Assembly: GCA_023512135.1 (NCBI GenBank)
Contig: JAIMAG010000004.1
Span: 62,001-126,000, forward strand
Length of the DNA: 64,000 nucleotides
Direction: 5' to 3'
From: Terriglobia bacterium
GTDB lineage: Bacteria; Acidobacteriota; Terriglobia; Acidiferrales; UBA7541
Below the pieces are notes generated by a model. That model did not search any database, was not told the origin of the DNA, and was given only the letters and a program-made list of their open reading frames with translations. Of the stretch, positions 9,545-17,060 are shown one piece after another. Position numbers and translations under genes: made by a program. Position 1 is the first letter of the stretch. Every line of letters starts with the position of its first letter.

Positions 9545-10579
9545 GTGGTTGCGAATTCCTCTTCTTCCGCTGGACCGTCGGCTGCTTTGTCGGCGCCATC
9601 GGTGCGCACGTTTTCTGTCGAACCCGAAGCGGCCGGGCAACGGCTCGACCGCTACCTGGCCGAGCGTCTGCACGAGCTCAGTCGTACGCGCATCCAGGAA
9701 CTGATTGCGCAGGGCCACGTACGGCTTTCCGGTGCGCCTGCCCGCCCTTCGACAAAGGTTTGTGCTGGTCAGCAGATTACGGTCGAAGTCATTCCCCGGC
9801 CTCCGCTGCGAGCCGTTCCCGAGCCGATTCCGGTAGAAATTCTCTATGAAGATGACGACGTGGTCGCGGTGAACAAACCGGCCGGCATGGCTGTGCACGC
9901 CGGAGCCGGTCTGAGCAGGGGCACACTGGTCAACGCGCTGCTGCATCGCTACGGACGACTGTCCGGAGCCGCCGGCGAGCTTCGACCGGGCATTGTGCAT
10001 CGGCTTGACAAGCTGACCTCGGGTGTCCTTCTGGTGGCCCGCCACGACGCCGCCCACCGGGCCCTGGCAGAACAGTTCCGCCGCCGCGAAGTGGAAAAGC
10101 TCTACCTGGCGCTGTTGCACGGGAGCCTCCCCCGGTCAGCGGGCTGCATCGAACTGCCAGTGGCCCGCGATTTGCGCCGCCGCATCCGCATGACCACTCG
10201 CCGCCAGGAAGGTCGGGCGGCGCGCACCGACTGGCGCGTGCGCTGCCGCTTTCCGGCGTTCACGCTGGTGGAAGCCATCCCTCACACCGGGCGCACGCAT
10301 CAGATTCGCGTCCATTTTGCTGCGCTCGGCCGCCCGGTGGTCGGCGATACCCTGTATGGCGCGCCGCGGCAGGTACGCGTCGGTCGGCAGACGCTGCCCC
10401 TGCTCCGCCGATTTTTCTTGCATGCTGCGCGCATCACCTTTCAGCACCCCTGCCGAGATGAACGCATCTGCGTCCGTGCACCGTTGCCGGTGGAGTTGCG
10501 GCAATTCCTGGCCCAGCTCGCCGCAGCCTGTGGGGTTCCGACGGATTCCGTTGACCGTGCGGTTGCCGACTTCCTATAA
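9545..10579 (+). CDS. rluD: RluD-family 23S rRNA pseudouridine synthase
   Basis: About 344 residues from a GTG at 9545; another GTG at 9602 is possible, and the start is uncertain because neither has a well-placed ribosome site. An S4 RNA-binding domain (QRLDRYLAERLHELSRTRIQ) is followed by the RsuA/RluD catalytic domain with HRLDKLTSG (catalytic Asp155) and GRTHQIRVHF. The family converts specific uridines in 23S rRNA helix 69 (positions 1911/1915/1917) or tRNA to pseudouridine. The first 20 residues are Ser/Ala-rich and not conserved. It is the last gene of the ileS block; its stop codon overlaps the -10 box of the next gene's promoter. Confidence 0.88.
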   Translation: MVANSSSSAGPSAALSAPSVRTFSVEPEAAGQRLDRYLAERLHELSRTRIQELIAQGHVRLSGAPARPSTKVCAGQQITVEVIPRPPLRAVPEPIPVEILYEDDDVVAVNKPAGMAVHAGAGLSRGTLVNALLHRYGRLSGAAGELRPGIVHRLDKLTSGVLLVARHDAAHRALAEQFRRREVEKLYLALLHGSLPRSAGCIELPVARDLRRRIRMTTRRQEGRAARTDWRVRCRFPAFTLVEAIPHTGRTHQIRVHFAALGRPVVGDTLYGAPRQVRVGRQTLPLLRRFFLHAARITFQHPCRDERICVRAPLPVELRQFLAQLAAACGVPTDSVDRAVADFL

Positions 10580-10580
10580 T
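10551..10580 (+). promoter_or_regulatory. sigma70 promoter for the first vWA gene, embedded in the rluD 3' end
   Basis: TTGACC (10551-10556), an 18-nt spacer and a perfect TATAAT (10575-10580). The TAA stop of rluD is part of the -10 box. Only 12 nt separate the box from the ATG at 10593, so the mRNA would have a leader of about 5 nt. Confidence 0.7.
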
Positions 10581-10592
10581 TTTTTTGAAGTC

Positions 10593-11636
10593 ATGAGACA
10601 GCGTTGGGCACTGCCGATTCTGCTGATGGTTGCAGCCCTGGTGGCGGCCGGCGGGGCGGCGCAGCGCCCGGCCCCGCAACCCCCGGAACCGGTCTCTCCG
10701 CAACAGCCCATCGTGACCACCGTGGACCTGGTGAACATGGTCTTCACCGTCACAGACCGGCGCGGCCAGTTTGTCACCAACCTCACCCGGGATGACTTTC
10801 AGGTGTTCGAGGAAGGGCAGGAGCAGAAAATCGAATTCTTCAGCCAGGAAACCGATCTCCCGCTGCGCATCGGGTTGTTGCTGGATACTTCCAACAGCAT
10901 CCGCAACCGCCTGCAGTTCCAGCAGGAGGCTGCAATCGATTTTCTGCACCTGGTGCTCCGGCGCCGCAAAGACCAGGCGTTTCTGATGACCTTCGATAAC
11001 GAGCCGGCGGTCGTCGAAGAATTCACCGATGACGTCGGCACGCTGCAGGAAGCCATTCTGCGCCAGCGCGCCGGCGGGGCCACCGCGCTCTACGATGCCA
11101 TTCATTATGCCTGCAGTCAGCGCCTGATGCAGCCGCCGCTGCCCGCCGGGGACAATCCCGAAGTGCGCCGCGTGCTCGTTTTGCTCAGCGACGGTAAAGA
11201 CAGCATGATTTACGGCAAATCGTTGCGCGAAGCCCTCGAAGCCTGCCAGCGCGCCGAAGTCGCCATCTACGCCATCAGCACCAGCACCGACTGGCTGGCT
11301 TTTCGCGGCAGTGACAAGGAGAAGGCCCCGGAGAAATATCACTTCACCGAAGGCGACAAGGTGCTGGCCCAGTTGGCCGAAGAAACCGGCGGTCGCGCCT
11401 TCTATCCCTATCGCCGCGACGACCTGGCCCAGTCGTTCGCCGACATCGGCGACGAGCTGCGCAGCCAGTACTCGCTCGCCTATGTCCCCACCAACCGCAT
11501 CGCCGACGGCCGCTTCCGGTCGGTGCAGATTAAAGTCCGGGGGAAAGATCTGACGGTGCGCTCCCGCAAAGGGTACTACGCGCCGCGGCCGGTGCAGCCA
11601 CACCGCGTCGTGATCGGCAGCCCCTCGGGATATTAG
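10593..11636 (+). CDS. Exported VWFA-domain protein (acidobacterial VWFA-related family), vWA1
   Basis: 347 residues. Signal peptide (residues 1-23, ending GGAAQ), then a beta-sandwich-like segment 'VFTVTDRRGQFVTNLTRDDF..VFEEGQEQKIEFF' and a von Willebrand A domain. The MIDAS-like motif is DTSNS, with VLLSDGKDS further on. The C-terminus ends with the family tail 'LRSQYSLAYVPTN...VRSRKGYYAP'. This is the family once named 'VWFA-related Acidobacterial domain' (TIGR03436). No enzymatic role is known; vWA domains usually bind proteins through a metal ion. It is the first of three paralogues within 3.2 kb. Confidence 0.88.
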   Translation: MRQRWALPILLMVAALVAAGGAAQRPAPQPPEPVSPQQPIVTTVDLVNMVFTVTDRRGQFVTNLTRDDFQVFEEGQEQKIEFFSQETDLPLRIGLLLDTSNSIRNRLQFQQEAAIDFLHLVLRRRKDQAFLMTFDNEPAVVEEFTDDVGTLQEAILRQRAGGATALYDAIHYACSQRLMQPPLPAGDNPEVRRVLVLLSDGKDSMIYGKSLREALEACQRAEVAIYAISTSTDWLAFRGSDKEKAPEKYHFTEGDKVLAQLAEETGGRAFYPYRRDDLAQSFADIGDELRSQYSLAYVPTNRIADGRFRSVQIKVRGKDLTVRSRKGYYAPRPVQPHRVVIGSPSGY

Positions 11637-11648
11637 CGCTGCGCGCAC

Positions 11649-12644
11649 TCAGTTCGCTGCGGCCGGTGCGTAATAGCCTTTCCTGGACAGCACCTTCACT
11701 CCGCTGCGGTTGACCCGCACTTCCACCTTGCGAAATTTTCCGTCGCGCCGGTTGTTCGATGAATAGTAGCCGAGCGTGTACTGGCTGCGCAGCTCCTGGG
11801 CAATCTGCTCGAAGGCTTCGTCGAGCCGTTTCTCGTCGCGCAGGAAGATGGCCCGTCCACCGGTTTGCTCAGCCAGCCGGCGGGCCACGCCCGCGCCGCT
11901 CGGTCCCCCGAAGCCGTAGAAGCCCGGGTCGGTGATGACCACGAAGTGAATCACGGTGTCGCTGCGCTGGGCTGCCTCGAGGGCCTGCTCGAGCCGCATC
12001 TGGCTGCCCGCGTCCACTGCGTCGGAGAGGATGAGCAGCGCCTTGCGCCCGGCCTCGCGACGCAGTTTTTCCTGGCAAGCCAGCCAGATGGCGTCGTACA
12101 GGCGCGTGCCCACCGGACCTGCCCGCGGCAACGGGCCGTCGGGCAGCGGGGCGTTGATCGTCGCGCGCCGGATGCCGCCTTCGAGCTGTGCGAGCGAGTC
12201 CGTGAAATCGCTCAGCAGGTCCACGTTCACATCAAAGCTGATCACCAGCGCCAGGTCGCCGTGACGCAGCACTCGCGCGAGGAACCGCAGGGCTGCCTGC
12301 TTTTCCTCCTCGAGAATGCGTTCGACGCTGATGCTGGTGTCCAGTAACACACCCAGAGTGATCGGCAGGGAAAGCTCGCGCGAGAAGAACTCGATCTTCT
12401 GTTCCTGCCCGTCCTCGAAGACACGGAAATCCTGCGCACTGAGGTCGGTCACGATCCGCTGGTTCCGGTCGCGAACCGTCACGAACAGATTGACCAGACG
12501 CGCTTCGGCGCGAATCGGTTCCTGCGGTTCCTGCCGGATTGCCGGCACGGCCTGCGTGACGAGAGTCAGTCCGGTCAGGGCAGCACACACCGCGGCCACT
12601 AGAATCGTTTGCGTCACTGCCGGCGAAGAGTTTCTGGCGCTCAC
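11649..12644 (-). CDS. Exported VWFA-domain protein (acidobacterial VWFA-related family), vWA2
   Basis: 331 residues from a GTG at 12644; the frame is open to 12740, but this GTG is preceded by GGAGA at 10-nt spacing and gives a clean signal peptide (ILVAAVCAALTGLTLVTQAV). It shares the family order with vWA1: 'VFVTVRDRNQRIVTDLSAQDFRVFEDGQEQKIEFFS' (shown in part), MIDAS DTSIS, LLILSDAVDAGS, and the tail LRSQYTLGYYSSNNRRDGKF with VLSRKGYYAP. It is convergent with vWA1 (12 bp apart) and divergent from vWA3. Periplasmic or surface location is expected. Function unknown. Confidence 0.87.
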   Translation of the reverse strand: MSARNSSPAVTQTILVAAVCAALTGLTLVTQAVPAIRQEPQEPIRAEARLVNLFVTVRDRNQRIVTDLSAQDFRVFEDGQEQKIEFFSRELSLPITLGVLLDTSISVERILEEEKQAALRFLARVLRHGDLALVISFDVNVDLLSDFTDSLAQLEGGIRRATINAPLPDGPLPRAGPVGTRLYDAIWLACQEKLRREAGRKALLILSDAVDAGSQMRLEQALEAAQRSDTVIHFVVITDPGFYGFGGPSGAGVARRLAEQTGGRAIFLRDEKRLDEAFEQIAQELRSQYTLGYYSSNNRRDGKFRKVEVRVNRSGVKVLSRKGYYAPAAAN

Positions 12645-12775
12645 GGTATAATTTTCTCCGGCAACAACCGCGATGCTGTCCCTGCGGGATTGGATGCCCG
12701 GAACCGGCGAGCGGCTGACCAGCCGTGCGGTGTCCACCACGCATCCAATTCTCCGGCAGCAGCGGGGCTGATTGT

Positions 12776-13783
12776 ATGCGGAGCCGGACGTATTTCGGAA
12801 TGCTCGTGCTGGCGGCGCTGCTGGCCGGCTCGCCCGCGGACATTCAGAACCTGCCCGCCCCTCCGGCAGAACCGGCGCTGGTGGTGGTCCCTGTGACCGT
12901 GAAAACCGCCGACGGGGAATTCCTGTACGAACTTCGCCGGGAAGACTTCCGCATCCTGGAAGACGATGTCGAGCAGGAGATCGCCCTGTTCAGCGCGGAG
13001 CCGCGGCCGCTGAAAGCAGTGGTGCTGCTCGACAACGCGTTGCGTCCGCGGCAGGCGGAAATGGTGCAGCAGTCGCTCGGGGCCATCGCGGGGGGCTTTG
13101 GCCCGTTCGATCATGTGGCGCTGGCCTCGTTCGAGTTTTCCTTTCGCCAGGAGTCTGATTTCCTTTCCGACAACGATCGACTGTACGAACGGCTCCGCGC
13201 CCTGAAACTTTCGGCGGAAGCTGCGGAACGCGGCGGCTCGCAGACCCGGCCACCCCGGGTCGATGCGAACCCAGGCGCTGCGCCGCCGCCCCGGCGAATC
13301 GGCCTGCTGGGCGGCGAAGGAAAAAATCTTCATGACGCCATCTACGAAGCAGCACGGCTGCTGCAGGAACCCGCTGCCGAGCAACGGAAAATCATTCTGG
13401 TGATCACCGACGGAGCCGTCTCGCGCGAGAGCCGGATGCCGTTCGATCACGTGCTGCGCGAACTGCTCCATCAGGGGATTACGGTGTACGCGGTCGGCAC
13501 CAACCCGGGCCTTTTGCGCGGCCGGGCAGAGGTGCTGGAACGCTATGCTGCGCGCACCGGTGGCGAAGTTTTCTATGCCGAAAATCGGGCAGCGCTGGAA
13601 AGCGCCTACGGCCGGATCACCGAGCAGGCTCGCTACGCCTACACGCTCGGCTATGTGCCTCGCAAAACCGATCGCACCCGCGACTACCACGCGATCGAAG
13701 TCCGCGTGCGCCGCCCGAATTTGACTGTGCTCGCGCGCGAAGGCTACTTCCTCAGCGGCGCAGCTGGAAGCAGCGCGCCCTGA
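12776..13783 (+). CDS. Exported VWFA-domain protein (acidobacterial VWFA-related family), vWA3, divergent MIDAS
   Basis: 335 residues from the ATG at 12776. The N-terminus is a signal peptide (MLVLAALLAGSPADIQ region). It has the same domain order as its neighbours, with LRREDFRILEDDVEQEIALF and the tail YAYTLGYVPRKTDRTRDYH. The MIDAS position reads DNALR rather than DxSxS, so metal binding is probably lost. A loop rich in Pro/Arg (about residues 155-185) is inserted. It starts 131 bp from the divergent vWA2; the gap has a TATAAT at 12647-12652 on the plus strand but no matching -35. Function unknown. Confidence 0.84.
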   Translation: MRSRTYFGMLVLAALLAGSPADIQNLPAPPAEPALVVVPVTVKTADGEFLYELRREDFRILEDDVEQEIALFSAEPRPLKAVVLLDNALRPRQAEMVQQSLGAIAGGFGPFDHVALASFEFSFRQESDFLSDNDRLYERLRALKLSAEAAERGGSQTRPPRVDANPGAAPPPRRIGLLGGEGKNLHDAIYEAARLLQEPAAEQRKIILVITDGAVSRESRMPFDHVLRELLHQGITVYAVGTNPGLLRGRAEVLERYAARTGGEVFYAENRAALESAYGRITEQARYAYTLGYVPRKTDRTRDYHAIEVRVRRPNLTVLAREGYFLSGAAGSSAP

Positions 13784-13817
13784 AGTGGTTTCGGTCCGCC
13801 GCGCACGCACTTTCTTC

Positions 13818-13846
13818 TTGACATCCCTCGGAGCTGACCGTATAGA
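13818..13846 (+). promoter_or_regulatory. Near-consensus sigma70 promoter of the small Lys-rich peptide gene
   Basis: Perfect TTGACA (13818-13823), exactly 17 nt, then TATAGA (13841-13846). It is the closest to consensus in the window and should be strong. The predicted start near 13853 leaves a leader of about 76 nt with a GTTCC/GGAAC hairpin just before the ribosome site. Confidence 0.78.
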
Positions 13847-13928
13847 ACAATCCGGAGCGCGCGCTCGCAGGGCTTCGAGCGAGCTGTCCGCGTTCCGAGG
13901 GGAACAGAAAAAAAGGAGACAATGCGCG

Positions 13929-13985
13929 ATGGCTAAGAAAGCAAAGAAGGCTGCCAAGACCGCGAAGAAGGGCAGCAAGTGCTGA
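13929..13985 (+). CDS. Very small Lys/Ala-rich peptide gene (18 aa), or dual-function small RNA
   Basis: The 18-residue product is MAKKAKKAAKTAKKGSKC: eight Lys, five Ala, one C-terminal Cys, and no acidic residue. AAGGAG at 13913-13918 is 10 nt before the ATG. An overlapping ATG at 13922 opens a 4-codon frame too close to the ribosome site to be used. The gene has its own consensus promoter (13818-13846) and intrinsic terminator (14009-14043), giving a transcript of about 190 nt. Composition resembles histone-H1-like or nucleic-acid-binding tails, so binding to DNA, RNA or the ribosome is an inference. The transcript could also act as an RNA, since its 5' part has two small hairpins. I know of no named family. 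Confidence 0.6.
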   Translation: MAKKAKKAAKTAKKGSKC

Positions 13986-14008
13986 GCAGCCTTCGAGAGT
14001 GCACCGCC

Positions 14009-14043
14009 AGCGGGGCGCCCCGTGCGCCCCGCTTTCTTTTTTG
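14009..14043 (+). terminator. Intrinsic terminator after the small Lys-rich peptide gene
   Basis: A perfect 10-bp stem AGCGGGGCGC / GCGCCCCGCT with a 5-nt loop, followed by TTCTTTTTT. It ends 36 bp before the end of the convergent helicase gene. Confidence 0.9.
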
Positions 14044-14078
14044 CTGGGGACTTCGCCGGATGTTTCGCGGTGTCGTTC

Positions 14079-17060
14079 CTATTCAGCCGGTTCTGGGCGG
14101 TTGGGTGCTGGCACCGACAGCTCCGGCTGCTCGTGTTCCGGGCAGATCGGCTGAAACTCGCAGGTGCGGCAGGCGAAGCCGGGCCGTGCAGGAAAGTGCT
14201 GGGCACGAATTTCGTCGGCAACTTCCAGCACGCGCTGTTCGGCTTCGGCCAGCTCTGCAGCGCTGCGCGTGGTGGAGACGGCTTCGTTCGTGGTCAGATT
14301 GTAGAAGGTCAGTCGCACCGGCTCGTAGCCCAGCACCTCGCGGGCGCCGAGCGCGTACAGGCTGAGTTGTAAACTCCGGTCGGCCGTCTTCTGGTCCTGC
14401 GGATTGCCCGTTTTGTAGTCGACGATTTCCACTTGGTTGCGGCTGCCCGCGCGGTTGATCTGGTCAATGCGTCCGGTGACGACGACGTTGCGCTCCAGAG
14501 CCAGTTCGAAGCGGCGTTCCTGGGCTACCACGCGCGGCGGCGCCGCCAGGTAGCTCTGGCAGAAGGCGCGCAACTGGTCGAGCCCGGCTTTTTTGTACTC
14601 CTCGCGCTGGTAGGCGTCGCGGAAGCCTGCGTCCGACCAGTTCCGTTCGTAAATCTCCTGCACCTCAGAAAATTCGGGACGGAATCCTTTGTGCACTCGA
14701 GCCACAAATTCTTTGATCGTCGTGTGCATCAGGTTGCCGAACGTCACGGCAGCCTGGGGCCCGCCCGACAGGCCCCACACATGGCCGAACAGGTACTTCA
14801 TCGGACAGCGGTCGTATGTGTCGATTGCGGAAGCACTCAACTGCAGCGGTTCCGGCGCGGGTGGATGGAATTGCCGCGCCCACTCTCCGATGCGCGAGTC
14901 CACGCGAGACTCCGGGCCGCGGCGCGGGAAGAGCTGCGTGTTTCGTGGTGGCGCCGGCGCCACACTCGGCGTCAGGCGCACGACGTCGTTCCGAGCCATC
15001 AGCTCCGCGTTCATCAGGATGTCTTCGAGAAACGGCGAGGGCTTGGTGCGCCGGTTGACCACAGCCGTCAGCGTCAGCTCGCGCTGTGCGCGCGTCAGGG
15101 CCACGTAGAACAGCCGGCGCTCCTCCTGTATGTGCACGTTGCCTTCCGGCAGGGCTTCCTTCATCAGTGCGGTCGGAAACTCCAGCACCGGCTGGCGCGC
15201 CCGGGCCGGGAAGGCGTCCTTGGAGAGCCGCAGCAGAAACACGTACGGAAACTCCAGTCCCTTGGCCCCATGGACGGTCATCAACTGCACGGCATCGCCT
15301 GGGGATTCTTCTTCGAGAGCCAGGATGGCGTTGGCTTCCTCGAAATATCCGAGGTATTCGATCAGCTCGGCCAGTTTTTTCGTTTCGCTTTTGCGTTCCC
15401 ACTCAGCGATGAAACGCAGCAGCCGGTCCAGGTAGCGGCGATCCGGGTCCGCAGGCAGAAGGTTCAGTTGCAGACCGTCCAGCAGTAATTCGACGAGGGC
15501 GCTTGTGTTAACCACCGAAGCACGTCTGTGCAGGGCGTCGATCCACGGTTGCAGCTCGCCGAGGCGCGCACCGGGCCGGAGCTCCGGCAATTCGTTTTGC
15601 GCTTCGGCCAGCACCGCCCACAGACTGCGTCCGCGGCTGCGGTCGGTACGCTGCGCAAGACGAACCAGGTCGGCCGGCTGCAGTCCCCAGGCCGGCGCCG
15701 CCAGCACCCGCGCGCAGGCGACATCGTCGGCCGGGTTGTCCACCAGGCGCAGATAGGCGATCACGTCGCGTACCAGAGGATTTTCCAGAATGGAAAGATT
15801 GCGAATCACAAATGGCAGGCCACGACGGCGCAGCTCGGCGACCAGGCGCTCGCGGTGCGTGTGCATCCGGTAGAGCACGGCCATCTCGCTCCAGGAACGT
15901 CCTTCAGCGTGCAGCCGCTCTAGCTCGTCGGCCACCCAGAGGGCTTCTTTTTCCGCGTCCTCGAATTCAACGATGCGGACCGGCACCCCGGGCGGATTGC
16001 GGGTGAACAGCTCCTTGTCGGGTAGATAGCGATCGCGGTTATGGCGGATCACCGCTCCGGCCACGCGCAGGATGCGTTGCGTCGAACGGTAGTTCTGCCG
16101 CAGCGCAATGTGAGGCTGCACGGGCCGTGGATTCCCGGCAGCGAATTTTTCCACGAACAGCTTGAAGCTCCCGAAAGAGGCGCCGCGAAATCGGTAGATG
16201 GCTTGGTCGTCGTCGCCGACGGCGACGATGTTGCGCCGGTCCCCCGCCAGCAACCAGAGCAGTTCGATCTGCGCAATGTTGCTGTCCTGGAATTCGTCCA
16301 CCAGGATGTAGCGGTAGCGCTGTTGCTGCAGGTGGAGCAGATCCGGGTTGGCGCGCAGCTCCATCACCGCGCGCAACAGCAGCCCGCCAAAGGTCACCAG
16401 ATTCCGCTCCCGCAGCATCCGCTCGCTTTCGAGGAATGCGCGCGCGACCTCTTGCTGGCGGGCCAGCTCCTCCTGGCGCGCTGCGCGAGTTTCCGCGTCC
16501 AGACGTCTTTGCTCTCGCGCGAAGTCTCGGGCCAGGTTGTCCACGTACTGCAGGTAATCTTCCGGCGTGACCAGTTCGTCCTGGCAGCGCGAGAAAAACT
16601 GAGTGAAGTCGCTCAGAAATCGTCCCGGCTCGGCCAGCTTGAAATAGTGCTTCAACTGCAGGCGCGGCAGGTTGCGCCGCAGCAGAATCCAGTAGTCTAC
16701 TTCGTCGAGCACGCGAAGTGCGGGATTGAGTTGCGTCAGCAGATGGTGACAGAACGCGTGGTAGGTCCCCAGCCAGACGCGCTCGCCCCGTTCCCCGGCC
16801 GAGCGCACCACGCGATGCTTCATCTCGGCTGCCGCTTTTTCGGTGAACGTCAGCCCCAGGATCGCTTCCCCGGGTAAGTCGGGTTGCGAAAGTAAAAGAT
16901 GCCGAATCCGTTCCGTGATGACCCGCGTCTTGCCCGTCCCGGCTCCGGCCACCACGAGCAGCGGACCTTCGTCGTGCAACACTGCGGCGCGCTGCTCGGG
17001 GTTCAGGTGAAGGCTTTCTTCGCCGCCGTGCGGGCCCGGCATTTGCAAAATTTTCGCCAT
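14079..17060 (-). CDS. UvrD/Rep-family ATP-dependent DNA helicase fused to a PD-(D/E)XK nuclease with Fe-S type cysteines
   Basis: 993 residues, a UvrD-like superfamily-1A helicase with a C-terminal AddB/RecB-like nuclease. Walker A is AGAGTGKT (38-45), Walker B is ILVDEFQDS, and motif III is GDDDQAIYRFRGA. The C-terminal 250 residues have GNLMHTTIKEFV and VEIVDYKTG, the nuclease core. Cysteines are placed as in AddB/Cas4-type iron-sulfur nucleases: one in YDRCPMKYL, and CRTCEFQPIC near the end. Such fusions act in recombination or repair of DNA ends. No addA/recC partner is adjacent. A TAGGAT box lies 8 nt before the ATG. Confidence 0.88.
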   Translation of the reverse strand: MAKILQMPGPHGGEESLHLNPEQRAAVLHDEGPLLVVAGAGTGKTRVITERIRHLLLSQPDLPGEAILGLTFTEKAAAEMKHRVVRSAGERGERVWLGTYHAFCHHLLTQLNPALRVLDEVDYWILLRRNLPRLQLKHYFKLAEPGRFLSDFTQFFSRCQDELVTPEDYLQYVDNLARDFAREQRRLDAETRAARQEELARQQEVARAFLESERMLRERNLVTFGGLLLRAVMELRANPDLLHLQQQRYRYILVDEFQDSNIAQIELLWLLAGDRRNIVAVGDDDQAIYRFRGASFGSFKLFVEKFAAGNPRPVQPHIALRQNYRSTQRILRVAGAVIRHNRDRYLPDKELFTRNPPGVPVRIVEFEDAEKEALWVADELERLHAEGRSWSEMAVLYRMHTHRERLVAELRRRGLPFVIRNLSILENPLVRDVIAYLRLVDNPADDVACARVLAAPAWGLQPADLVRLAQRTDRSRGRSLWAVLAEAQNELPELRPGARLGELQPWIDALHRRASVVNTSALVELLLDGLQLNLLPADPDRRYLDRLLRFIAEWERKSETKKLAELIEYLGYFEEANAILALEEESPGDAVQLMTVHGAKGLEFPYVFLLRLSKDAFPARARQPVLEFPTALMKEALPEGNVHIQEERRLFYVALTRAQRELTLTAVVNRRTKPSPFLEDILMNAELMARNDVVRLTPSVAPAPPRNTQLFPRRGPESRVDSRIGEWARQFHPPAPEPLQLSASAIDTYDRCPMKYLFGHVWGLSGGPQAAVTFGNLMHTTIKEFVARVHKGFRPEFSEVQEIYERNWSDAGFRDAYQREEYKKAGLDQLRAFCQSYLAAPPRVVAQERRFELALERNVVVTGRIDQINRAGSRNQVEIVDYKTGNPQDQKTADRSLQLSLYALGAREVLGYEPVRLTFYNLTTNEAVSTTRSAAELAEAEQRVLEVADEIRAQHFPARPGFACRTCEFQPICPEHEQPELSVPAPNRPEPAE

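Follow-up and report, generated by a model that had tools for sequence, protein, structure and literature searches.

Does the 226 bp segment at positions 13818 to 14043, situated between a VWFA gene and a helicase gene, represent a gene, and if so does it act through its peptide, through its RNA, or through both? Throughout this report, "the window" refers to the entire stretch of DNA analyzed, which is 64,000 nucleotides long and derives from a Terriglobia bacterium. A sequence-only reading of the segment had proposed that it contains a promoter, a ribosome site, an 18-codon Lys-rich frame, and an intrinsic terminator. All four are indeed present, and the coordinates and composition given for them are correct. 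As judged from the comparisons described below, the segment is almost certainly a real gene rather than a chance pattern.

Anatomy of the locus

The features of the locus are provided in Table 1. The -35 box of the promoter, TTGACA, extends from 13818 to 13823, and the -10 box, TATAGA, from 13841 to 13846, with a spacer of 17. The -10 box agrees with the consensus TATAAT at only four of six positions and lacks the final T, and the promoter was thus overlooked by a stock scan. Near-consensus promoters of this grade are rare in the 64-kb window. Indeed, a scan requiring at least 10 of 12 matches and a spacing of 16-18 yielded, besides this promoter, just one more + strand site and a single - strand site. 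The top + strand match, TTGACC-18-TATAAT at 10551-10580 (11/12), lies just before the first of three adjacent paralogous VWFA genes (10545-13783), which belong to the Acidobacteria-specific TIGR03436 family and alternate in strand.

Table 1. Features of the microgene locus and its neighbors in the window.
Feature	Position	Strand	Basis
Upstream neighbor, VWFA-domain protein TIGR03436	12725..13783	+	NCBIfam 5e-42; same neighbor in most in-family copies
Promoter, sigma-70-type TTGACA-17-TATAGA	13818..13846	+	Sequence; similar boxes and spacing in 52 units
Stem-loop P1 (predicted), 5' transcript start	13853..13897	+	RNA fold, 9-pair outer stem
Box A, CGAGGGGAA; most relatives carry GGGGAGA or a close variant	13896..13904	+	Alignment of 34 units, coding and non-coding
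Shine-Dalgarno site AAGGAG	13913..13918	+	Sequence; GGAG-type site before relatives' Lys frames
Box B, ATGCGCG, abutting the start codon	13922..13928	+	Near-invariant among 34 units; absent in genus g6
Microprotein ORF, 18 aa, MAKKAKKAAKTAKKGSKC	13929..13985	+	25 homologous frames; pN/pS 0.17; codon-position test
Intrinsic terminator, GC stem-loop and T-rich tract	14009..14042	+	Stem-loop 14009-14033; compensatory pairs in g4
Convergent neighbor, UvrD/PcrA/AddA-like helicase with PD-(D/E)XK-like C-terminal part	14079..17060	-	NCBIfam

We infer that transcription starts at about 13853. The fold energy calculated for the window's whole transcript is unexceptional, with a z value of -1.4. The frame opens with the ATG at 13929, closes with the TGA at 13985, and specifies eight Lys residues, zero acidic residues, and a C-terminal Cys. 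The terminator stem-loop is formed by 10 pairs, nine of which are G-C. The helicase displays NCBIfam matches to PcrA/Rep/UvrD/AddA that fall under the cut-offs, along with a weak match to Cas4 at its C-terminus.

Distribution of the unit

The C-terminus of the helicase, which was matched in 87 of the 89 family genomes, served as the anchor for locating relatives, and the adjacent region was taken from most of these. Units were sought by their anatomy, namely a promoter followed by a terminator 134-247 nt downstream. Fifty-two units with a shared anatomy were identified, 25 of which code for a Lys-rich peptide and 27 of which do not. All but one belong to the window's family, where they are spread over nine genera, or ten codes when the window's own is counted, namely g1 (that of the window), g2, g3, g4, g5, g6, g8, g9, g11, and g13; the remaining unit is from a genome of a different family. 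Across the 52, a TTGA-type -35 box and a TA-rich -10 box are similarly spaced, and a GC stem-loop with a T tract ends every unit, but the latter was itself a search criterion. Beyond the 52, there is an extra coding copy in genome G006, which has no recognized promoter, and an extra non-coding copy in G004, which was found by a sequence model.

In G001, the other genome of the window's genus, the whole unit is retained with 88% identity, and its peptide is MAKKAKKAAKSAKKGSKS. The arrangement had been considered too orderly for chance, and its preservation in this sister species and in 50 more genomes, mostly in the same place, upholds that view. In pattern searches run on 95 genomes from the order and 399 from the class, the peptide turned up once per genome, with the in-family copies near the VWFA gene or the helicase. 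In the two cases read in which another gene parts the helicase from the VWFA gene (G076 and G087), the microgene stays beside the latter. In some g6 genomes (L189 and L190), the helicase is separated from the microgene by a peptidase-like gene. The whole unit is absent from several genomes, including near-complete ones, and because many genomes are without it the unit is dispensable.

When a sequence model spanning the promoter to box B was applied to 200 class genomes, all clear matches came from the family of the window, and a phylum-wide pattern search revealed no convincing relatives. A profile built on the peptide alone found just 4 of 101 genomes and missed known members, and is too weak for proof of absence. 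A search of named genomes with the helicase returned four close loci only, among them entries designated 'Terriglobia bacterium', 'Candidatus Acidiferrales bacterium', and 'Acidobacteria bacterium' MAG, which places the window in the Terriglobia of the Acidobacteriota and probably in Ca. Acidiferrales. The database entry of the window's congener (L183, JAIMBE010000075.1) reads 'Bacillota bacterium isolate HOT.MB2.40', although by its locus it belongs with the acidobacterial family, and the record is probably a mislabelled MAG.

Several candidates were rejected. In family f9, the full-length matches to the promoter-to-box B model (R1) lie in a conserved coding region and have no promoter at the model start. 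The MKKKVKK...RKR frames of family f7 are the C-terminal end of a larger basic ORF beside a PcrA/UvrD gene. This ORF, of ~50 aa, follows the PcrA/UvrD gene on the same strand (L192 near 2834, L193 near 2812, and L194 near 3011), ends in ...KKKVKK..RKR, and may be a further small basic protein that is conserved. The candidate in G088 seems to be the end of a more extended Lys-rich stretch immediately upstream of an aminoacyl-tRNA-synthetase-like gene.

The Lys-rich frame and the RNA elements

Lys-rich frames occur in g1, g2, g6, g11, and g13, and in genome G051 of family f12, and their consensus is MKKKxKKxxKKxxKKGK. The 25 tallied peptides are 13-18 aa in length with a mean Lys content of 57% and a net charge of +7 to +10. 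None contains F, H, I, L, N, Q, R, W, or Y; the G006 peptide, which is outside the tally, has N, Q, and R. The sequence-only reading had stressed the terminal Cys and the lack of acidic residues. Both hold for the window's peptide but are not family traits, since G001 has Ser in place of the Cys and acidic residues are common in the g6 peptides.

Differences in length between frames amount to whole codons. Among 12 frames of genus g6, each of 17 codons, pN/pS is 0.166, a value from frames that are short, mutually related, and composition-biased. Variable columns number 5, 7, and 15 of 16 at codon positions 1, 2, and 3, respectively. With relatedness not corrected in either test, a third-position excess as high arose in 1 of 100,000 permutations of these frames; of the codons that differ, a share of 0.56 was synonymous versus a permutation mean of 0.17, with 0 of 2000 permutations reaching 0.56. 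The g13 pair shows five synonymous and no non-synonymous differences; the g1 pair, with one and two, respectively, is uninformative alone. Judged by these patterns of substitution, the frame is under selection at the protein level, and such selection indicates that it is very probably translated wherever it is present. The conserved anatomy, the synonymous character of the changes, and the absence of a longer homologue all support the proposal that the locus is a free-standing gene encoding a small basic peptide. Both the Lys pattern and the terminator, the conservation of which had been suggested as a check, are kept in relatives.

The frame in G051 (L188, 5512-5556) encodes a 14-aa Lys-rich peptide, MKKTAKKAAKKKGK. 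It has a similar promoter and terminator and occupies an unrelated genomic place. This frame is plausibly homologous to the family peptide, although convergence is also possible.

Units lacking the Lys frame are found in g3, g4, g5, g8, and g9, and in G014 of g2. As can be seen from the alignment, these retain the promoter, the terminator, box A (as GGGGAGA or a close variant), and box B (ATGCGCG, or TTGCGCG in G112) with similar spacing. The other possibility raised by the sequence-only reading, a small RNA that also specifies a peptide, is likewise supported, since a motif-bearing unit persists without the peptide in five genera and in a single species from a sixth. In the coding forms of g1, g2, g11, and g13, the same boxes flank the ribosome site and the frame begins right after box B. 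The g6 units have the peptide and lack boxes A and B as defined, and thus the RNA element and the peptide need not act jointly.

The ribosome site is replaced by other sequence, such as GTTC, in g4, most of g3, and G014. In g5, GGAG still occupies its place and a conserved frame is absent. A hairpin surrounding box B, referred to as P2, takes the place of the frame in g4, and is formed by GTTCC...GGAAC or, in G103, by GCTGC...GTAGC. For P2 and the terminator in g4, two-sided changes were observed in 8 of 26 pairs, a number as high being reached in 6 of 500 shuffles, and slid structures scored worse. Note that the covariation in P2 consists of two pairs in a single sequence, G103. A search for perfect complements of the conserved loop, GCGCATGAACTA, returned mainly the locus itself, and no shared target was seen. 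The RNA probably has a role of its own.

The G014 unit, in which ATGCGCGATGTAG is found and the ribosome site reads GTTC, retains the promoter and terminator; the most suitable interpretation is that the frame was lost recently within g2. On the VWFA tree, which is unrooted, the coding and non-coding states require at least three switches. Loss of the frame rather than gain would account for the peptide-less genera, the direction not being proved by an unrooted tree.

Function of the unit

The gene is apparently undescribed and is not assigned here to any named family. Searches of Rfam at gathering and relaxed thresholds gave chance-level matches only, far under the curated scores, and a PDB profile search, a weak test with a profile of 17 positions, found no matching solved chain. 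Nothing like this gene was named in the open-access literature searched. A type I toxin was rejected given that the 25 peptides are devoid of F, I, L, W, and Y and are not hydrophobic or membrane-spanning; as for an antisense RNA of such a system, no promoter-like site was found on the - strand in 12000-16000.

The anatomy corresponds to that of a dual-function small RNA: a predicted short, independent transcript that has a promoter and an intrinsic terminator of its own, and a small frame with signs of protein-level selection. The conservation of the RNA unit where the frame is missing may reflect a function of the RNA itself. In the enterobacterial dual-function RNA Spot 42, the SpfP peptide is 15 aa (PMC11188072), and Yersinia has an SgrS RNA that lacks sgrT (PMC4021124). 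With both systems the present unit shares a short transcript bearing a very small frame, and with SgrS/SgrT it also shares retention of the RNA in some species without the frame. The Acidobacteriota peptide, however, is far more Lys-rich, and its transcript matches no known RNA in Rfam; any base-pairing activity would be hypothetical. In composition the peptide resembles the histone H1-like tails of AlgP, PhaF, and chlamydial Hc2 in its Lys, small residues, and likely disorder. DNA binding has been described for KPAA peptides of the AlgP/PhaF type, as has an association between AlgP and polyphosphate granules (PMC9239181). The known tails are rich in Lys, Ala, and Pro. Here, the complete protein would be free, 13-18 aa long, without a folded domain, and specified by its own promoter and terminator.

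The explanation we favor, and consider likely on the strength of these sequence comparisons, is a dual-feature small RNA/microprotein gene whose peptide acts by charge on a polyanion. A single-copy gene would give rise to a transcript of ~190 nt. In the genus of the window, as in four or more further genera, the transcript would serve as the mRNA for a cytosolic, unstructured, cationic microprotein of 13-18 residues, and outside g6 it would also bear boxes A and B as RNA-level elements, with a possible regulatory role. In the remaining genera, the RNA would have been retained after loss of the frame and, for the most part, of the ribosome site. Translation from a good ribosome site would yield a tiny peptide of net charge +7 to +10, which would most likely act by charge alone, binding DNA, RNA or the ribosome, or polyphosphate as histone H1-like tails do. 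Electrostatic binding is suggested because charge and length are conserved rather than the exact sequence. Binding to some polyanion is slightly favored on balance, the particular target being a guess.

Were the unit a plain microprotein mRNA, the peptide alone would matter, the boxes would be ordinary 5' untranslated sequence, and the peptide-less units would be decaying remnants. The g6 units with a peptide and no boxes, the genomes from which the whole unit is gone, and G014, which resembles early decay, would all fit; decay alone, however, would not predict the conservation of boxes, promoter, and terminator over five peptide-less genera or the g4 hairpin with its compensatory changes, and we consider this account unlikely. 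The converse account, a structured small RNA in which the Lys-rich frame is incidental, untranslated A/G-rich sequence, accommodates the motifs retained where the frame is absent. It is very improbable in light of the third-position variation, the low pN/pS, the whole-codon length changes, and the conserved ribosome site and charge.

A very small ribosome-associated protein, similar in composition to tiny basic ribosomal proteins and not a general polyanion binder, would be consistent with the good ribosome site and promoter, the shortness, and the extreme basicity of the peptide. Such a role is improbable given the absence of the unit from many near-complete genomes, its restriction to one family so far as seen, and the lack of Arg in the 25 tallied frames; the PDB profile result, weak as it is, also points away from it. 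A short frame followed by a terminator also brings to mind a leader peptide or attenuator. The next gene is convergent, however, so there is nothing downstream to control, and gene order contradicts this reading, which can hardly be entertained.

Within the favored dual-feature explanation, a more specific form can be put forward tentatively: a lineage-specific, free-standing 'naked tail' microprotein of 13-18 aa and +7 to +10 charge carried on a small RNA, with the peptide and RNA functions separated by genus, such that some genera would hold both, one mainly the peptide, and several the RNA only. If true, few known bacterial proteins dedicated to polyanion binding would be as short as the 'naked tail'.

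The locus provides evolutionary evidence for translation at 13-18 codons, which is under the usual calling size of annotation pipelines, in a phylum, the Acidobacteriota, in which small RNAs and small proteins have been little studied. Because lineages with peptide plus RNA, with mainly the peptide, and with the RNA only occur naturally, the two functions can be separated by comparison. The locus also suggests that peptides acting by charge only may persist as stable genes in their own right.
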